Shown here: positions 1 through 21,860 of the stretch, piece after piece
How the letters are laid out: each line of letters begins with the position of its first letter
Numbering within the stretch: position 1 is the stretch's first letter
IMG/VR virus record: IMGVR_UViG_3300040808_000814
Span: 1 to 21,860 of that record
Source of the DNA: a virus
Direction: 5' to 3' (one strand)
DNA: 21,860 nucleotides
The notes under the pieces: model-generated
What the model was told of the DNA's origin: nothing
The model's input: only the letters and a program-made list of their open reading frames with translations
Databases searched by the model: none
Program-made: the position numbers and the translations under genes

Positions 1-403
1 ACATCTCTTTTTTGTCAAACTTGATACCGGGGACTGAAGTAAGGACGTAACGCTGATTCACTTTCTTCTTACGTTTTTTCTTATTCCTACTATTATCTTT
101 GTGGGTTACTACCCTGAGGTTCTCTATCCTGTTATCATCCGGGTCCCCATTAATATGGTCAATAACCTTATCTTCTGGGGCAGGCTCCTTGTAATGCAAG
201 AACCATACCACCCTATGAGCTAACAGTGAGACTTGTTTACCGTTAATAGACGTACCAATATACCTGTAGCCCCCATTAGACTCAATAGGGCTTCCGGCCA
301 CTTTTCCTTCGAATCTATGAGGACTTTTCCAAATTAGCTGGCCTTTTTCCTTATTATAGTAAAATTTACTCTCAAGTTCTTTTAAAGTGAATCCTTTATA
401 CAT
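1..403 (-). CDS. HNH homing-type endonuclease, C-terminal part cut by window edge
   Basis: Reading leftward from ATG at 403-401, the frame is open for 134 codons and runs off the window. The middle matches the phage HNH_3-type endonuclease pattern: AHRVVWFLHY, then VIDHINGDPDDNRIENLR, then a T-x3-N-x2-N tail. The H, N and H metal/catalytic positions are visible in AHR, DHINGDPDDN and VTHKDN. A lysine-rich stretch follows and then a segment (VPGIKFDKKEM) that resembles the start of an AP2-like DNA-binding domain, but the frame is cut there. Such enzymes are usually free-standing mobile genes that nick DNA. An AGAGAGA stretch just upstream could be a weak ribosome site. The gene lies beyond a terminator that ends the neighbouring leftward operon, so it needs its own promoter, and candidate elements lie at 529-776. 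Family is confident; target unknown. Confidence 0.85.
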   Translation of the reverse strand, partial: MYKGFTLKELESKFYYNKEKGQLIWKSPHRFEGKVAGSPIESNGGYRYIGTSINGKQVSLLAHRVVWFLHYKEPAPEDKVIDHINGDPDDNRIENLRVVTHKDNSRNKKKRKKKVNQRYVLTSVPGIKFDKKEM

Positions 404-2978: not shown

Positions 2979-3148
2979 TAGACGACTCCACATGCTTTGA
3001 GAAAAGTGTATCGGTTAAACTGGGGGTTTTCTCCCTCGAGCCTATCCGCCCAATTGGAGCAAACCTGTCCATATTTCTTCTGAGTCATCATGTTCCTTTC
3101 ATTCTCTACTAACATTTCGGCAATCAGGGTAAAGTGCTTACGTGTCAT
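2978..3148 (-). CDS. Small hypothetical protein, 56 aa
   Basis: A 57-codon frame from ATG 3148 to TAA 2980-2978 that exactly fills the gap between its neighbours, with TAATG overlaps at both ends. The upstream GAAGGGAAAG is a good ribosome site. The protein (MTRKHFTLIAEMLVENE... to ...TFLKACGVV) is basic and probably helical, with the tryptophan of SNWADRL in the middle. This type, 'KHFxxIAxxL', is common among small phage proteins of unknown role. Its perfect fit within the overlap chain makes it a real gene despite its size. Confidence 0.75.
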   Translation of the reverse strand: MTRKHFTLIAEMLVENERNMMTQKKYGQVCSNWADRLEGENPQFNRYTFLKACGVV

Positions 3149-3729
3149 TATTCTTTCCCTTCAGGCTTGATCCATGCGGAGAAATTCATGTCGAACTGTC
3201 CCGTGCTATCAATGCACCATATAATATCCAAGGGGCCATGCTTAGACTCAAGAGCCTTCCTTGCGTTCTCTGGAGTATCGGTCTGGCCCGGGTAGAAGCC
3301 AGATTCGTAGTCTCCAACCTTGCGGAAACCTAGCTTCCCAAAATCAACATCCCATTGATCCGCACAGTCATCATTATTCACAAGCAAATCTGCATAGGAC
3401 TCTAGGTCATCCTCTACTTCATCTTGTGCCATGATCCACCCATCACCTACAATGAAAGTCGGAGTCCAGTGCCAACAGGTTGGTTTTGTATTGTGGACCC
3501 TGCCCTGTTCATCTGTGATGGTTTCATCATAGAACCTTAATTCTACGCCTATTCTCTCCATGATGTCATAAAGCCTATTTAAAGTCTTAGTATCGGTGGA
3601 ATCTCCACTGAATTGCTTGGCAAGGTGCCATAGGTCACCAGAGTAAACCGTCACGGATTCATCCTCATATGAGGGGCCAATGTCGGACCATCCATCAAAT
3701 GACGACAGGATTTTGTTTGCAGTTAACAT
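3148..3729 (-). CDS. Hypothetical phage protein, 193 aa
   Basis: The largest protein of the leftward operon. It is acidic, with Trp/Tyr/Asp clusters (YDIMERIGVELRFYDETITDE; CWHWTPTFIVGDGW; NNDDCADQWDVDFGKLGF). No known domain is recognised and there is no signal peptide or membrane segment. Its stop overlaps the next gene's start (TAATG at 3148), and its own ATG at 3729 overlaps the stop of the upstream 97-aa gene. Context suggests an early accessory protein expressed with the rest of the operon. Confidence 0.75.
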   Translation of the reverse strand: MLTANKILSSFDGWSDIGPSYEDESVTVYSGDLWHLAKQFSGDSTDTKTLNRLYDIMERIGVELRFYDETITDEQGRVHNTKPTCWHWTPTFIVGDGWIMAQDEVEDDLESYADLLVNNDDCADQWDVDFGKLGFRKVGDYESGFYPGQTDTPENARKALESKHGPLDIIWCIDSTGQFDMNFSAWIKPEGKE

Positions 3730-4022
3730 TATTCTAGCTCCGCACTAGTGTCATACCAGAGTTTATTCCAATCCGGTGTATTGTCCATTTCATAAGTATC
3801 AATCCACAAAACCCGATTGATATTGAAAGAGCGCCAACCGTCATCCGTCATGACAGGAACATTTGAAAGTCTGGACTTGCCATTAGGATCAAGAGTCCCA
3901 GTCAGCTTGCGTTGACTCCCGTCCTGTTTACGAAAGATCACTGTGAAGGGCTGCATAGGCTCGAGTCCATCCAAGAACCATTGCACATATTCGGGAGATT
4001 CATGTGTGTAAGTGTCAGGCAT
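3729..4022 (-). CDS. Small SH3-like phage protein (DUF2693-like), 97 aa
   Basis: The core pattern FTVIFRKQDGSQRKLTGTL ... VPVMTDDGWRSFNINRV resembles the phage DUF2693-type beta-barrel family (V-x-F-x-K-K-D-G-x-x-R-x-x-x-x-T-L followed by WRSFxxxxI). These are small proteins of unknown role. The start at 4022 follows shortly after a 23-aa membrane peptide frame. The stop overlaps the next ATG. Family assignment is from the visible pattern only. Confidence 0.7.
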   Translation of the reverse strand: MPDTYTHESPEYVQWFLDGLEPMQPFTVIFRKQDGSQRKLTGTLDPNGKSRLSNVPVMTDDGWRSFNINRVLWIDTYEMDNTPDWNKLWYDTSAELE

Positions 4023-4026
4023 TGGA

Positions 4027-4098
4027 TTAGACTCCTAGGATTAGAGATAGACCACACATTAGGCCAATGAAGAAACCGACAAAGATGAAGAAACCCAT
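4027..4098 (-). CDS. Tiny hydrophobic membrane peptide, 23 aa
   Basis: A 24-codon frame, MGFFIFVGFFIGLMCGLSLI..., almost entirely hydrophobic and long enough for a single membrane span. It has an AGGAG ribosome site (4106-4110 on the + strand) with 7-nt spacing, which is good support for translation. It is the first gene of the leftward operon apart from a possible eight-residue leader frame (4126-4100) that begins after AAGGAAAC and stops one base before this ATG. A second tiny membrane peptide occurs at 7681, so small membrane peptides may be a feature of this phage. It could affect the host membrane or block superinfection; this is speculation. Confidence 0.55.
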   Translation of the reverse strand: MGFFIFVGFFIGLMCGLSLILGV

Positions 4099-4520
4099 AC
4101 TAAGACTCCTCACATTGATCAGACATTGTTTAGTTTCCTTCCGTTTCTGTTGCATTCTTTATGCCTGACAGGTTTACGATTCGCAAGCATAAAAATACCC
4201 TAGATCAAAAATAGTTTAGTTACCCTAAAAGACTCAAGAAGAACGCGCGCGCGGTTACACTGATTCTATACAAGCTGTCAAACGGTATCAGATAGGCCCT
4301 AGGAGGCGCTGCAAGGGGGGCTACACCGACGAAACAGCTTGCCGGGGACGTTACCCTATCGAACACCCGATTCGTCGATCCTCAAGCATTTATTATTTGT
4401 CAATCCCCGACAGTCAAAAAACCCACTTTATTTGCATCGGCATCATGAAAAGTGTTGACGGATCGTGCTAGATAAGACTCACAAGACGAATCAATACCAC
4501 TTTTTGTAGGTCAGACACTA

Positions 4521-4580
4521 TGTGTAAATGTCATATAAACAATATCTATAAGTGTCGGATGCACAATATGTGTAAGTGTC
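4521..4580. repeat. Tandem array, 3 copies, 24-bp period
   Basis: The motif TGTGTAAATGTC / TCTATAAGTGTC / TGTGTAAGTGTC recurs at 4521, 4545 and 4569, exactly 24 bp apart, with AATAT before the second and third copies. It looks like iterons, i.e. repeated binding sites for one protein, in a divergent promoter region. Confidence 0.8.
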
Positions 4581-4624
4581 TTGCAGACGTTAACAGGGGT
4601 AAGGGTCTTCCGGACACCCCCTAT

Positions 4625-4714
4625 GAGGGAATTGCTTTCAATAGCCCCCATGAGGGAATTGCTTTCAATGACCCCCACGAGGGAATTTTTGAGGCAACCC
4701 CCCACGAGGGAATT
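4625..4714. repeat. Tandem array, 4 copies, 27-bp period
   Basis: GAGGGAATT occurs at 4625, 4652, 4679 and 4706, exactly 27 bp apart, each preceded by CCCC(C)-x-A-x. The first two units also share GCTTTCAAT. It lies just upstream of TTGACA (4721) and of the first rightward gene, so it may be an operator or origin iteron array. Confidence 0.85.
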
Positions 4715-4778
4715 TAGGGCTTGACAGAATCAACACAGTGTGGAAAAAGAGACTCACCAACACAAAAGGAGCTACACA

Positions 4779-5162
4779 ATGACTAACCAAGAAATCTTTG
4801 ACGAGGTTGCTGAAGCACTTATGGCACAAGGTAAACCCTCTACAAACCCTGATAGGTATTGCTACTGTAGCTACTACAGCAATGGTAACAGGTGTGCCGT
4901 CGGCTGGCTCATGGATGAGGCTACAGCAAAAAATCTGGAAGAATACTACCCGGGTAAGGATGTGTATGAGATTGACAGAGAGAACGAGGGCTACTTCATG
5001 GGCTATGATCTAGCGTTCCTGAGTGCCCTACAGTGTGCCCATGATAACGGTGCCCATAAGGAGAGTTGGATGGATGATTGGAGAGAAGAGATGCTGCAAA
5101 TTGCTGATGATTTTTACCTTGACAAGACTGTTTTTTGTGGTCTTTTTCAGGAGGTTTTTTGA
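4779..5162 (+). CDS. Cys/Tyr-rich phage protein, 127 aa
   Basis: First gene of the rightward block. Start at ATG 4779 with AAAGGAG 7 nt upstream; a GTG at 4740 lies ahead of this ribosome site and is rejected. The segment DRYCYCSYYSNGNRCAVGWLMDE fits a pattern seen in small phage proteins of unknown function (C-x-Y-x-x-x-x-G-x-x-CAVGxLxxD). The C-terminal half is acidic and aromatic. It ends 1 nt before the next ATG and carries that gene's AGGAGG inside its last codons, which implies coupling. Confidence 0.75.
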   Translation: MTNQEIFDEVAEALMAQGKPSTNPDRYCYCSYYSNGNRCAVGWLMDEATAKNLEEYYPGKDVYEIDRENEGYFMGYDLAFLSALQCAHDNGAHKESWMDDWREEMLQIADDFYLDKTVFCGLFQEVF

Positions 5163-5163
5163 G

Positions 5164-5337
5164 ATGGGAAAGATGAAGAATCAGAAGGTTAAGCCCCTCC
5201 AGATGGAAATCAAAGAGACCCAGAAGTTGATTGATGACTTGCTCTGGGAGGACGAACCTGTAGAAGGACTGGAAGCATACTTAGATCACCTCATGGAACT
5301 TGACAAAAAGGGTGAGAAGTATTACTGTCTTTTTTGA
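5164..5337 (+). CDS. Small helical protein, 57 aa
   Basis: Starts at ATG 5164, one base after the stop of the previous gene, with AGGAGG at 5149-5154. The protein is Lys/Glu-rich (MGKMKNQKVKPLQMEI..., then IDDLLWEDEPVEGLEAYLDHL), probably two helices. A longer frame beginning at 5023 lies inside the previous gene and is not used. No family is recognised. Confidence 0.65.
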   Translation: MGKMKNQKVKPLQMEIKETQKLIDDLLWEDEPVEGLEAYLDHLMELDKKGEKYYCLF

Positions 5338-10160: not shown

Positions 10161-11070
10161 GTTCCTTAATTACCTGACCTTCAAGATCAAGTGTATCAAA
10201 CACCAACAGGATAACCCTATCCGTCTGGACATGGACCTTGCAGTTAAGTGCCGTGACGAACTGTTGGAAATGCAAGAGGAAAAGGTAGAACAGCTTAAGG
10301 AGGTTATGCCTAAGGTCCCTGTGATCAAGAAGAAGACTAGGCCTAAGATCACACACAAGAAAGATGGCACTCTGTCTGCACATGGGGACAAGTGGTTCCG
10401 TCTACTAAGAGAACACAAGAAGCCTATGTCTTTTGATGGTGTAGTTGAAGTAGTGGATGACTACAAAGAACCCAATCCTAACTCTACCGACCAAGTGAAG
10501 GCATGGCTCTACGGTCTTGGATGGAAACCTTGCACTCATAAGTTCCTCAGAGACAAGGAGACTGGGGATGAGCGTCAGATTGAACAGGTCCGTAAAGATG
10601 GAGAGCTTACACCAAGTGTCCTGAGGCTCAAGGATACTACCCCCGAGGTAGAGATTTTGGAGGGTCTGACTATTATCCAGCACAGGCTTGGGGTGTTCCA
10701 AGGGTTCATTGACTGTGCATTGGAGATTGACGAGAAGTACTACCTCAGGGCAGAAATTGGAGGGCTTACAAACACACTACGCTTCAAGCACAAGAAGCCT
10801 TTGACAAACCTTCCCGGAGTAGACAAGCCTTGGGGTAAAGAGATCAGGAGTTGTCTTGTCTCTGATGAGAGTGAAGTGTTCATTGGGGCTGACATGACTA
10901 GCCTTGAGGATACTACTAAACGTCACTACATGAAGACTCTGGACCCTGACTATGTGAAGGAAATGTCTCAACCGGGGTATGACCCGCACCTGTCTCTTGC
11001 ACTGTTTGCAGGGGAGATAACACAAGAGGAGTATGACTTTTATGGATGGTATGAAACTAATTCAGGGTGA
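10129..11070 (+). CDS. Family A DNA polymerase, N-terminal fragment (thumb and palm motif A)
   Basis: The N-terminal part of a T7/Pol I-type polymerase lacking the exonuclease domain. The AGGAGGG site at 10117-10123 fixes the start. Residues about 1-100 are the helical thumb-like region; residues 250-262 carry motif A, FIGADMTSLE (D255 as first catalytic aspartate, E260 as in T7 DASGLE). The chain continues through DPHLSLALFAG and then, near position 11042, runs into the start of an inserted methyltransferase gene and ends after eight foreign residues (GWYETNSG). Motifs B and C are missing here and occur in the frame ending at 12314. It would need the C-terminal fragment to be active. Confidence 0.9.
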   Translation: MEKDFNPQLTRFLNYLTFKIKCIKHQQDNPIRLDMDLAVKCRDELLEMQEEKVEQLKEVMPKVPVIKKKTRPKITHKKDGTLSAHGDKWFRLLREHKKPMSFDGVVEVVDDYKEPNPNSTDQVKAWLYGLGWKPCTHKFLRDKETGDERQIEQVRKDGELTPSVLRLKDTTPEVEILEGLTIIQHRLGVFQGFIDCALEIDEKYYLRAEIGGLTNTLRFKHKKPLTNLPGVDKPWGKEIRSCLVSDESEVFIGADMTSLEDTTKRHYMKTLDPDYVKEMSQPGYDPHLSLALFAGEITQEEYDFYGWYETNSG

Positions 11071-11815
11071 CTGCCTTGAGGTTATGAAAACGATCCCTGA
11101 TGGTTCTGTTGATATGGTGCTCACTGACCCGCCTTATGGGACCACGGCTTGTAAATGGGATAGTATTATTCCCTTTGAACCTATGTGGGAGCAGTTGAAG
11201 CGGGTGACAAAGAAGAACGGCGCTATCGTGATGACTGCTAGCCAGCCGTTTACGAGCGCGTTGGTAATGTCGAATGTGAGAATGTTTAAGTATGAGTGGA
11301 TTTGGGAAAAGGCAGTTGGCTCAAATTTTGCAGTATTAAAGTTTCAACCTATGAAGGAACATGAGAATGTTCTGGTATTCTCTGAGGGTAAGCACAATTA
11401 TTACCCAATTAAGCAGCCAAGGAAAGGTTCCGGTTCAGATCGCCTGAAGTACGGGAATAATGGTAGTAAGACGGGAGAGGCAACGGGTTCCCTAAATTTT
11501 CATGGCTTCACACCAGAGACTTACGACCGTAATTGGAGGAACCCCTCATCAGTACAGTACTTCAATAACCGAGAGAAATATCGCGGCCTGCACCCAACAC
11601 AAAAACCCGTCGCCCTGATGGAATATCTCATCAAGACTTACACCAACGAAGGAGAGACGGTCTTAGACTTCACGATGGGTTCAGGGACAACCGGAGTAGC
11701 AGCAAAAGGTCTTAACCGTAACTTTATTGGAATTGAACTGGATGAGCAATACTTCAACATCGCAAAAGAACGAATTGAAAACACTCCCAAAGGATCAACA
11801 GAAACAACACTATGA
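11042..11815 (+). CDS. Site-specific DNA methyltransferase inserted within the polymerase gene
   Basis: A complete 257-aa N6-adenine/N4-cytosine methyltransferase (N6_N4_Mtase type). Order: motif IV DPPY (residues 29-32), a variable target-recognition region, then VLDFTMGSGTTGVAA (SAM-binding motif I, from residue 209) and the terminal FIGIELDEQYFNIA; DPPY-first order is typical of beta-class enzymes. ATG 11042 has GAGGAG 10 nt upstream; 11051 is an alternative start. No partner restriction enzyme is adjacent. Codon choice (CGG, GCG, CCG, TCG around 11190-11280) differs from the flanking polymerase sequence, suggesting recent transfer. The gene lies exactly between motif A and motif B of the polymerase. 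It could modify phage DNA against host restriction. Confidence 0.92.
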   Translation: MDGMKLIQGDCLEVMKTIPDGSVDMVLTDPPYGTTACKWDSIIPFEPMWEQLKRVTKKNGAIVMTASQPFTSALVMSNVRMFKYEWIWEKAVGSNFAVLKFQPMKEHENVLVFSEGKHNYYPIKQPRKGSGSDRLKYGNNGSKTGEATGSLNFHGFTPETYDRNWRNPSSVQYFNNREKYRGLHPTQKPVALMEYLIKTYTNEGETVLDFTMGSGTTGVAAKGLNRNFIGIELDEQYFNIAKERIENTPKGSTETTL

Positions 11816-12314
11816 AAGAATCAAGGCAATACGTAAAGCCTACAAAGTTGTCAACTACTCAGCAGTATATGGCGTAGGTGCACCTAAGTTAGCTAGAGAG
11901 ATGGGCATTAGTAGGGCAAGGGCACAAGAGTTGCTGGACGCTTACTGGCAAAAGAACTGGGCTGTGCGTAAGATTGCTGCTCAACAATACACTAAGGAAG
12001 TGGGAGGATACACATGGCTCAAGAACCCTGTCAGTGGTTTTTACCATGAGTTGCGGTATGACAAGGACCGATTTTCTACACTTAACCAATCAACAGGAGT
12101 TTACGTATTCGACTCATGGCTTGCTAGGGCGGCTCAACAAGGTTACTGGGGTCAAGCATCTTTCCACGACGAAACACTGGCCTCAGTCACGAACGAATCA
12201 CAAACTCGTGAGTCACTGAAACAAGCCCTTGCAAATCTCAACAAAGACCTTAAGTTAAACGTACCGTTCGGGATTGATACCCAAGTCGGTCAGAACTACG
12301 GAGATGTGCACTAA
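11742..12314 (+). CDS. Family A DNA polymerase, C-terminal fragment (fingers motif B and palm motif C)
   Basis: Contains motif B, RKAYKVVNYSAVYG (R31, K35, Y39, Y43 counted from ATG 11742, matching the T7 R518/K522/Y526/Y530 spacing), and motif C FHDE (H142, D143, E144). It ends in GQNYGDVH, a typical family A C-terminus. The homologous part begins about 11787 (PKDQQKQHYER), inside the tail of the methyltransferase gene and in a different frame. The start is uncertain: ATG 11742, TTG 11727 or TTG 11775, none with a clear ribosome site. All the catalytic residues missing from the N-terminal piece are here, so the two pieces together make one complete polymerase domain. Confidence 0.88.
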   Translation: MSNTSTSQKNELKTLPKDQQKQHYERIKAIRKAYKVVNYSAVYGVGAPKLAREMGISRARAQELLDAYWQKNWAVRKIAAQQYTKEVGGYTWLKNPVSGFYHELRYDKDRFSTLNQSTGVYVFDSWLARAAQQGYWGQASFHDETLASVTNESQTRESLKQALANLNKDLKLNVPFGIDTQVGQNYGDVH

Positions 12315-18139: not shown

Positions 18140-18919
18140 ATGGCTAGAACTACAGTTGTCTATAGCTGTTGCCATGCAGACCCTTCCGCAGGGAATGAGC
18201 GTTTTGACTGGCTTGGTGCATTCCTCTATGACCTTAAACCTGACATGGTTATTGACCTAGGTGACGGGGCTGACATGAGAAGTCTCAACACCTTCGACAC
18301 CAGATACCCACAAGCAATCGTATCCCAGAGTTATGAGCAGGATGTGGAGTGTTATAATGACAGTCAAGATCGTCTCCGATGGAAGTTTCGTCACAACAAG
18401 CGTCGTAAGCCATTCTGGGTAGGTTTTGAGGGTAACCATGAAAACAGAATCAAAAAAGCCATTACACACGATCCACGATTGGAGGGATCAAAATACGGGA
18501 TTTCCTTTGGGCATCTTCAAACGGACCAATGGTTCGACGAATACCACGAATACGAAAATTCTGCCCCCTCTGTCGCTGATTACGATGGCGTCTCATATGC
18601 TCACTTCTTTAGTGCTGGTAACTATGGCACTGCTGTTAGTGGGCTTCACCATGCTTATACCCTCCTCCAGAATCGTAACTGCTCTAGCACTTGTGGGCAT
18701 TCTCATAAGCGTAGTCTCTACTTCAAGGACTCTGCTCATCCTAACCCGATCATTGGGGCAGTGGTCGGATGCTACAAAGGGAAAGATGAAGGATGGGCTG
18801 GACAAGCAAACAGGGAGTGGTGGAAAGGCGTCCTTGTGAAACGAGAACTCGAAAATGGTCACTATGACCCACAATGGATTAGTATGAAAGTGTTGGAGAG
18901 GGAATATGGAGTGTATTAA
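18140..18919 (+). CDS. Calcineurin-like metallophosphoesterase
   Basis: 259 aa. Motifs: SCCHADP (the usual D-x-H site, here C-x-H-like with a following Asp), IDLGDGAD (GD), GFEGNHENR (GNHE), SYAHFF (H) and CGHSHKR (GHxH). These form the two-metal active site of the calcineurin-like family. Phage homologues are common in T7-like and other marine phages and are presumed phosphodiesterases or phosphatases. The first motif is unusual in lacking the first Asp. The substrate is unknown. The end overlaps the next gene by 14 nt. Confidence 0.87.
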   Translation: MARTTVVYSCCHADPSAGNERFDWLGAFLYDLKPDMVIDLGDGADMRSLNTFDTRYPQAIVSQSYEQDVECYNDSQDRLRWKFRHNKRRKPFWVGFEGNHENRIKKAITHDPRLEGSKYGISFGHLQTDQWFDEYHEYENSAPSVADYDGVSYAHFFSAGNYGTAVSGLHHAYTLLQNRNCSSTCGHSHKRSLYFKDSAHPNPIIGAVVGCYKGKDEGWAGQANREWWKGVLVKRELENGHYDPQWISMKVLEREYGVY

Positions 18920-19280
18920 CTGTAAATCTCCCGCTGTTCACATGCACCATGTGATTCCTAAGGCCCTTGGGGGTAATAAGGAAGACAACCTTGTACCTTT
19001 GTGTGAGGCTTGTCACGGGTTAGTCCACAATAAGGACTTTACTGACTGGAAAGAGCTACAAAGAGCGGGTATAACTAAGGCCAAGGCCGAAGGTAGGTAT
19101 GTAGGAAGGAGTCCTAAAATAAGTAGAATTAAGGTATCTTACCTGAATCAAATTGGGATGTCTACCTACAAAATAGCTGCGATAATGGGTATCAGTAGGA
19201 TGTCGGTCCACAGGATACTAAACGAGGAGGGTTGGAGTAAATACCGAGTTAAAGTAAAGGAGGGTGTAGACCTTGGGTAG
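18906..19280 (+). CDS. HNH nuclease fused to resolvase-type helix-turn-helix
   Basis: 124 aa. Residues 1-45: C3-x2-C6, HMHHVIPKALGG, NLVPLCEACHGLVH, a compact zinc-stabilised HNH domain. Then ITKAKAEGRYVGRSPKISRI followed by a helix-turn-helix, STYKIAAIMGISRMSVHRIL, which resembles the C-terminal DNA-binding region of serine resolvases/invertases. Likely a mobile endonuclease with a borrowed DNA-binding tail. ATG 18906 lies in the end of the phosphoesterase gene. It is followed by an overlapping methyltransferase-like gene. Confidence 0.85.
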   Translation: MECINCKSPAVHMHHVIPKALGGNKEDNLVPLCEACHGLVHNKDFTDWKELQRAGITKAKAEGRYVGRSPKISRIKVSYLNQIGMSTYKIAAIMGISRMSVHRILNEEGWSKYRVKVKEGVDLG

Positions 19281-19799: not shown

Positions 19800-20336
19800 A
19801 TGCAGACAAAAGTATGTACAAAATGTGGAGTAAAGAAAGGGCTAGAGAGGTTTTCTAAGCATAAGGGGGGTAAGTATGGTGTTAATCCGAGGTGTAAGGA
19901 TTGCATTAAACAATACCGACAAGAGAATCGAGAGAGGATACTTGAGTACAACAAACAATACTGGCAAGAAAATCGAGGTAGGGTACGTAAGCAGAAAAAA
20001 CAATACTACCAAGAAAATCGAGATAGGGTACGTGAAGATCAAAAACAGTATCGCCAAAAGAGCCCAGAGATACTTAGGGCCAATAAAGCAAGATATAGAG
20101 CAAAAAAGCGAAGTGCTACACCAGATTGGTTGACACCTCTTGACTTCTTGGTCATACGTCATATATACGAGACTTGTCCTGAAGGCCATCACGTAGACCA
20201 TATAGTGCCACTGAAAGGTAAGACAGTCTCAGGTCTTCATGTCCCTTGGAACCTTCAGCACTTACCTGCGGCAGAGAATATAGCAAAAGGAAATAGGGAG
20301 TGGCCTGATATGTGGTTGTTAGAAGAGGCGGCATAA
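19800..20336 (+). CDS. HNH endonuclease with zinc finger and tandem-repeat linker
   Basis: 178 aa. Residues 1-40: zinc finger CTKCGVKK and CKDCIKQYR. Residues about 37-98: four tandem 15-residue units of the form QY-x-QENR-x-R, all charged and likely one long helix. Residues about 120-165: HNH core HHVDHIVPLKGKTVSGLHVP then WNLQHLPAAENIAKGNR. Such linker-HNH proteins are free-standing phage endonucleases. ATG 19800 lies 2 nt after the methyltransferase stop; its stop overlaps the next ATG (TAATG). Confidence 0.9.
   Translation: MQTKVCTKCGVKKGLERFSKHKGGKYGVNPRCKDCIKQYRQENRERILEYNKQYWQENRGRVRKQKKQYYQENRDRVREDQKQYRQKSPEILRANKARYRAKKRSATPDWLTPLDFLVIRHIYETCPEGHHVDHIVPLKGKTVSGLHVPWNLQHLPAAENIAKGNREWPDMWLLEEAA
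19911..20090 (+). repeat. In-frame 45-bp coding tandem repeat, 4 copies
   Basis: Four 15-codon units within the HNH gene (QYRQENRERILEYNK, QYWQENRGRVRKQKK, QYYQENRDRVREDQK, QYRQKSPEILRANKA). The DNA of the first three is also similar, indicating recent duplication. Boundaries are approximate. Confidence 0.7.
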
Positions 20337-20896: not shown

Positions 20897-21069
20897 TGAA
20901 CATTCTGTGGCGATACTACAACTACCTGAAGACTTGGCGTAAACACCGAGACACAATCAAACACCTGAATAAACTGTCAGATCACGAACTGGAAGACATT
21001 GGATTGTCCCGTGGTGATATTGATGACATGATTTGGCTACAACAAGACAAGGAGAACCGAGGGAAATGA
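20896..21069 (+). CDS. DUF1127-family small protein
   Basis: 57 aa. After a basic N-terminal helix (MNILWRYYNYLKTWRKHRDT) comes LNKLSDHELEDIGLSRGDID, which matches the DUF1127 (YjiS-like) signature L-S-D-x-x-L-x-D-I-G-L-x-R-x-x-I. The family is typical of Alphaproteobacteria, where some members bind RNA and influence RNA turnover. Both ends overlap neighbours (TAATG with mazG, ATGA with nrdJ). A host-derived regulator carried by the phage is likely; function in the phage is unknown. Confidence 0.85.
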   Translation: MNILWRYYNYLKTWRKHRDTIKHLNKLSDHELEDIGLSRGDIDDMIWLQQDKENRGK

Positions 21070-21860
21070 GCGGACCTAAAATTGGAATTGCAGTCTGGGC
21101 AGATGAAGTTAAATACCGACAGGAAGGAGAAACCTACAAACAAAAGATTGCTCGTATCGCAGGGGCACTTTCTGATGGGCAAGAGCACTACGAGAAGATC
21201 AAAGAGATCATGGGGGATCAACGCTTCCTTGCAGGGGGCCGTGTACAGTCTGCTTCTGGGTCTTACCGCCGTGTAACTGCCTTTAATTGCTTTGTCATGC
21301 AGAAAGTCCCTGACTCTCTTATGGGTATTATGGAGGTAGCCAAAGAGGCTGCTAAGACCATGCAACTTGGTGGTGGTGTAGGTTATGACTTTAGTGATAT
21401 TCGCCCTAAAGGTGCCCGTATCAAGTCTCTAGGCTCTCAGGCGAGTGGTCCTGTATCTTTTATGGGTATCATGGATGCAGTGTGTAAAACCATTGCTTCT
21501 GCTGGCCATCGTCGTGGGGCTCAAATGGGATGCCTTCGTGTAGACCATCCTGACATTATGGAGTTCATCACTGCAAAGGCTAATTCCCACAATCTTACTC
21601 AGTTCAATGTCTCAGTACTAGTTACAGATGCTTTTATGGAGGCAGTTAAAGATGACTCAGATTTTGACCTAGTTTTTGAGGGGCGAGTATTTGAGACTGT
21701 TCGGGCACGTAGTCTTTGGGACGCTATCCTTCGCAACACTTGGGATTGGGCTGAACCGGGTGTGATCTTTATTGACCGTGTTAATGAGATGAACAACCTT
21801 TGGTATTGTGAGGAAATCAGTGCTACGAATCCCTGCCTCCATCCTGACTCTATGGTAGAG
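21066..21860 (+). CDS. nrdJ: Class II (B12-dependent) ribonucleotide reductase, N-terminal part with probable intein start
   Basis: Open to the window end (265 codons). Makes dNTPs from NTPs/NDPs using adenosylcobalamin. Recognised by LAGGRV, AFNCFVM (first redox Cys, C75), QLGGGVGYDFSDIRP, RRGAQMGCLRVDHPDI, then ISATNPC at 251-257. No ATP-cone is present. In class II enzymes NPC is followed by GEQ and carries the thiyl-radical Cys and its Asn/Glu partners; here it continues CLHPDSMVE, resembling intein block A. Thus the gene is probably interrupted by an intein whose Cys1 is C257 or equivalent. The remainder lies outside the window. Confidence 0.88.
   Translation, partial: MSGPKIGIAVWADEVKYRQEGETYKQKIARIAGALSDGQEHYEKIKEIMGDQRFLAGGRVQSASGSYRRVTAFNCFVMQKVPDSLMGIMEVAKEAAKTMQLGGGVGYDFSDIRPKGARIKSLGSQASGPVSFMGIMDAVCKTIASAGHRRGAQMGCLRVDHPDIMEFITAKANSHNLTQFNVSVLVTDAFMEAVKDDSDFDLVFEGRVFETVRARSLWDAILRNTWDWAEPGVIFIDRVNEMNNLWYCEEISATNPCLHPDSMVE

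Follow-up and report, generated by a model that had tools for sequence, protein, structure and literature searches.

The window analyzed here, the whole 21,860-nt stretch of DNA, is an entire linear IMG/VR virus contig (G000) that ends inside a ribonucleotide reductase (RNR) gene. The last open reading frame (21066-21860, plus strand) stays open up to the contig end and reads ...YCEEISATNP/CLHPDSMVE, where the slash, here and below, marks a predicted splice junction. The 256 N-terminal residues, ending in EEISATNP (21066-21833, plus strand), were assigned to a class II, adenosylcobalamin (B12)-dependent RNR on the basis of the translation, the profile matches to TIGR02504 (E = 1.7e-74 for the partial protein) and PF02867 (E = 4.4e-53), and 87% identity to the IMG/VR relatives L002-L004. 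Because it is truncated, the window RNR falls below the full-length TIGR02504 cut-off, which the RNR of L002 exceeds with 529.7 bits. The profile and the NPCGE finger-loop motif agree in identifying the enzyme as NrdJ, and we take the Cys of this motif to be the thiyl-radical carrier, in line with established RNR biochemistry. The closest annotated phages are roseophages and their relatives, and a MazG-RNR gene order is common to the window and PQ867845 (family Zobellviridae, subfamily Cobavirinae). The remaining nine codons of the reading frame (CLHPDSMVE, 21834-21860, plus strand) are the predicted block A of an intein.

Further potentially mobile or inserted genes are present elsewhere in the window. 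Free-standing HNH-type open reading frames lie at 2-403 (minus strand) and 18906-19280, both with Pfam HNH matches, and at 19800-20336, the last being HNH-like by eye only. The gene for the family A DNA polymerase is split at 11029-11825 by a DNA methyltransferase gene (N6_N4_Mtase, reading frame 11033-11815), with 797 nt in place of the 42 nt found in the intact gene of L101/L102 (~90% identical). This insert is not an intein, since it is not in frame; the N-terminal polymerase fragment has its own stop and the C-terminal one may start at an internal ATG, which suggests a two-piece polymerase.

We assessed what follows NP in the 80 nearest RNR relatives in IMG/VR. NPC[GA]E is read directly in 70 of the 80, bearing out the expectation of the first-pass annotation that GEQ should stand here; six contain an in-frame insert and four have a stop straight after NP, and in every case any other continuation past NPC was an intein. 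A divergent RNR lacking both GEQ and an insert is hardly credible against this background: it draws on nothing beyond the absent GEQ, and every gene that reads NPCLHPD proved to be an intein carrier in which GEQPL comes back ~240 codons later. Five relatives found with the window's own RNR (L002, L003, L004, L007 and L008; 82-87% protein identity) read ATNP/CLHPDS[IL]IETVEGRVKIKDI...VVHN/CGEQPLPPYGACLLGS, with an insert of 241-247 aa after which the extein resumes as VVHN/CGEQPLPP. In-frame inserts that begin with Cys and return to the extein at a +1 Cys (ATNP/C...VHN/CGEQ) were found in L002, L007, L008, L087 and others, the window showing the N-terminal junction only. Full inteins with the same start occupy the same junction in L002, L008, L087, L093 and others, as had been proposed from the window sequence, and the use of the intein as query identified ~20 further contigs with an intein at the same NP/C site, in four RNR subtypes.

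The insert is cut by the window end after nine residues, as previously noted, CLHPDSMVE running to 21860. These residues are identical at all nine positions to the intein start of L091, and likewise across L091/L094/L097; seven of nine match L002, with codon changes that comprise three synonymous and two conservative ones. Matches of this extent, with mostly silent or conservative changes, indicate that the nine residues are not a chance continuation. They also bear on a dead or chimeric gene end, produced by an assembly artefact or by decay of the RNR. A contig that stops 27 nt into an insert is a plausible break in an assembly graph, but independent contigs from different metagenomes share the junction, and the differences from the relatives in the nine codons are mainly synonymous or conservative, so that we regard this explanation as highly improbable. 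An exact copy of the last 34 bases of the window was found in none of the other viral contigs.

The identity of the insert was established in the relatives. Profile searches with the L002 insert exceeded the gathering threshold for PF14890 Intein_splicing (E = 1.3e-20) and HNH_3 (E = 7.2e-15), as well as the cut-offs of TIGR01445 (intein_Nterm) and TIGR01443 (intein_Cterm). The first-pass annotation had anticipated blocks B, F and G followed by GEQPL, all of which are present in relatives with the same start (CTPDH, VYDL[ST]VE.THNFIA, VVHN and then CGEQPLPP); the window itself contains block A only. In an alignment of 17 relatives, Cys1, T66 and H69 of block B, H236 of block F and the terminal N247 are invariant, and H246 is nearly so. 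An HNH_3 domain is placed between the two Hint halves of the relatives, and the window ends before the corresponding region; of the two homing domains that had been suggested, LAGLIDADG or HNH, it is thus the latter that the family carries. An AlphaFold2 model of the L002 intein based on the 17 sequences reached a pLDDT of 89.6. In a Foldseek search of this model against the PDB, the top matches were inteins, with NrdJ-1 (8UBS) second best (E = 1.6e-8), and the L002 intein is accordingly modeled as a Hint fold. An earlier AlphaFold model from seven sequences was discarded (pLDDT 51).

The window's insert is therefore very probably an in-frame, class 1 (canonical) cis-splicing intein located between Pro and the thiyl-radical Cys (ATNP/C-GEQ). 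A limit of this reading is that the window contains only 27 nt of the insert, the remainder of the window's copy being expected to resemble that of the relatives. Judging by its splice junctions, the intein lies between Pro and Cys of NPCGE, which makes the C encoded at 21834-21836 the intein Cys1 and the enzyme's own Cys the +1 nucleophile. The enzyme had been described as normal up to NPC; it is normal to NP, and the C belongs to the intein. Likewise, the insertion adjoins the catalytic Cys, as had been claimed, but lies before it and uses it as the +1 nucleophile. Pro at position -1 usually slows the first step of splicing, which counts against the assignment.

Variants at the same RNR site were considered as alternatives for the portion of the insert beyond the window. 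L095 harbors a 162-aa mini-intein (L095:3001-3486) from which the HNH region is deleted, and its CLHPDSLIE start is like that of the window. The window could accordingly carry an endonuclease-free mini-intein of the same family, which would splice and no longer home; we consider this unlikely, as every other complete relative in the family, from at least 17 loci, keeps the HNH region. A second alternative is that the insert is the N-terminal half of a split intein, in which case the RNR would end ~100 aa further on and a second gene product would be ligated to it in trans. The phage-type RNR intein NrdJ-1, which is inserted one residue later (NPC/SEI), is split (PMC13123727), and L094/L097 have a split intein elsewhere in the RNR; nevertheless, all complete relatives at the exact NP/C site are continuous, and a split form is very unlikely here.

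The RNRs of L094 and L097 (~3001-5217) contain two inteins, the continuous HNH intein at NP/C and the split intein at KPEG/TSS. The N-half of the latter ends in NDEILSW followed by a stop, and its C-half is encoded by a separate downstream reading frame ending SHN/TSSAF; the close relative L091 is without the split intein. A different intein (29% identical) occupies the same site in L081, whose RNR is 61% identical to that of L002. The inteins of L007 (3559-4281) and L008 (3977-4711) are identical except for a 12-nt deletion where the HNH region begins, which drops the four residues EHRM and possibly marks an inactivated endonuclease.

A continuous cis-splicing intein would act as follows. The RNR would be made as an inactive precursor, in which Cys1 of the intein attacks its own bond to Pro (N-S acyl shift), the catalytic Cys (+1) of the RNR receives the N-extein, the terminal Asn cyclizes with the aid of the penultimate His, and an S-N shift leaves an unbroken ATNPCGEQ. 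Most likely, the HNH domain between the Hint halves, as a putative endonuclease, would cut empty alleles of co-infecting phages, and repair would copy the intein in. The site, the frame, the blocks, the predicted fold, empty-site alleles and horizontal spread are observed in the relatives.

As expected for a homing intein, empty alleles occur and the family crosses RNR subtypes. The N-extein DNA of the empty L005 is 97.3% identical to that of the occupied L002. Inteins of the same family are found in RNRs with four C-extein motifs (CGEQPLP, CGEQGLP, C[SA]EIILR and CAEQSLAD). Between L002 and the NPC-SEI/AEI subtype, the inteins share 60-62% and the exteins 22-25% identity; the corresponding values are 62% and 25% for L002 and L091, and 71% and 25% for L184 and L230. 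Intein identities (60-71%) so far above those of the exteins (22-25%) indicate that the intein has moved horizontally. We also compared L002 with L005 for co-conversion: over the initial 100 nt of the C-extein the identity is 79%, compared to 93-98% further on, in a stretch that includes a variable loop with an indel, and ~6 positions differ in the conserved first 66 nt. A search of 50,697 phage genomes revealed no close relative of the intein, the best match reaching 58% over 43 aa of HNH and ~41% across the N-terminal part of the splicing domain. Among genome contigs, the scan gave a single cellular-labeled carrier, L230 (JAESUL010000160.1), which belongs to the bin of a Phycisphaerales MAG; its intein-bearing RNR could be a host gene or lie on a viral contig.

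The same Cys codon is interrupted by a different type of element in other relatives. In L045/L046/L048/L049, the RNR reading frame halts after ATNP. A 638-nt element (L046:6770-7407) splits the Cys codon as AAT CCG T^AAGAG...GATTG^GT GCA GAA, and its removal restores NPCAEQ in frame; its position (CCGT^...^GY) is one nucleotide from the intein site. In the predicted P1 of the L046 element, the 5' exon AAUCCGU pairs with an internal GCGGAUU, with a U.G at the splice site, and the last intron base is G. The fold of the L046 core, with the open frame left out, gave a z of -3.9, and the alignment contains a compensatory helix change from CCUUUCC/GGAAAGG to CCUCUCC/GGAGAGG. The open frame, located in one peripheral loop, is HNH-type nuclease-like by eye and has no Pfam match.

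The cultured Roseobacter phage CRP-118, in which two CDSs are annotated for the RNR, contains a stretch with 88% identity to the L046 core over 94 nt. In this phage the element measures ~172 nt and occupies the same codon in a different subtype (FGTNP-CSEI); the predicted intron-free RNR junction is AATCCGTGCTCAGAA, and the fold of this copy is only moderately more stable than those of shuffled sequences (z -1.65). A pattern scan identified 12 contigs, with the element after AATCCGT in all of them; the loci of the family include L311:2490-2661 and L312-L323. L319 (GVNP), which ends before the 3' exon, appears to represent a third RNR subtype with the intron; the family spans at least two and probably three subtypes. 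Group I anatomy, namely the P1 U.G, the terminal G, core helices and a restored exon frame, was found in L046, L311 and others, outside the window. No Rfam match was obtained within the intron for E values of up to 10, and the CRP-118 z was only -1.65; the group I assignment therefore relies on the anatomy and the reading frame.

RNRs are well-known carriers of inteins, and the window alone thus adds one more. The Mth RIR1 intein of Methanothermobacter and the archaeal RIR1 inteins lie in the RNR large subunit, Mth RIR1 likewise with Pro at -1 and Cys at +1; these inteins are archaeal. NrdJ-1 (PDB 8UBS) resembles the present family as an RNR intein first found in marine metagenomes, in the active-site finger loop and with a Hint fold. 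However, with its native exteins NPC/SEI (PMC13123727), it lies one residue later, after the catalytic Cys, has Ser at +1, is split and without endonuclease, and has only ~14% of its residues identical when the structures are aligned. Dwivedi et al. (2013; PMC3653736) surveyed the self-splicing elements of phage RNR genes, mostly nrdA/nrdE/nrdD, together with their homing endonucleases. Group I introns in phage RNR genes, such as Staphylococcus phage Twort nrdE, lie near conserved functional sites (PMC3653736), whereas the intron family described here interrupts the codon for the catalytic Cys itself in class II RNRs. A coincidence of introns and inteins in RNR genes is already known (Derbyshire and Belfort, 1998; Lazarevic, 1998; both cited in PMC3653736). 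For a coincidence at one and the same codon in several subtypes of class II RNR we found no description, in a coverage of the literature that is incomplete, and we claim no priority.

We tentatively suggest that homing elements contest the codon for the catalytic Cys in phage class II RNRs, a reading to which we give somewhat less than an even chance of being correct. The site would have been invaded independently, one nucleotide apart, by the group I intron family, by the HNH intein family and by one or more unrelated intein lineages (L081), with the HNH intein and the intron each spreading across subtypes that share about a quarter of their residues. If so, each occupant would destroy the target of the other and the occupants would compete for the codon, the enzyme remaining idle until splicing. 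The coincidence of intron and intein is the more interesting part of these results compared to the intein of the window: depending on the phage, one radical-Cys codon is occupied either by a protein or by an RNA that splices itself out. This may provide a natural test of whether homing sites are picked by conservation of the DNA target or by the benefit of interrupting an active site, and also of whether parasites of the two kinds are mutually exclusive.
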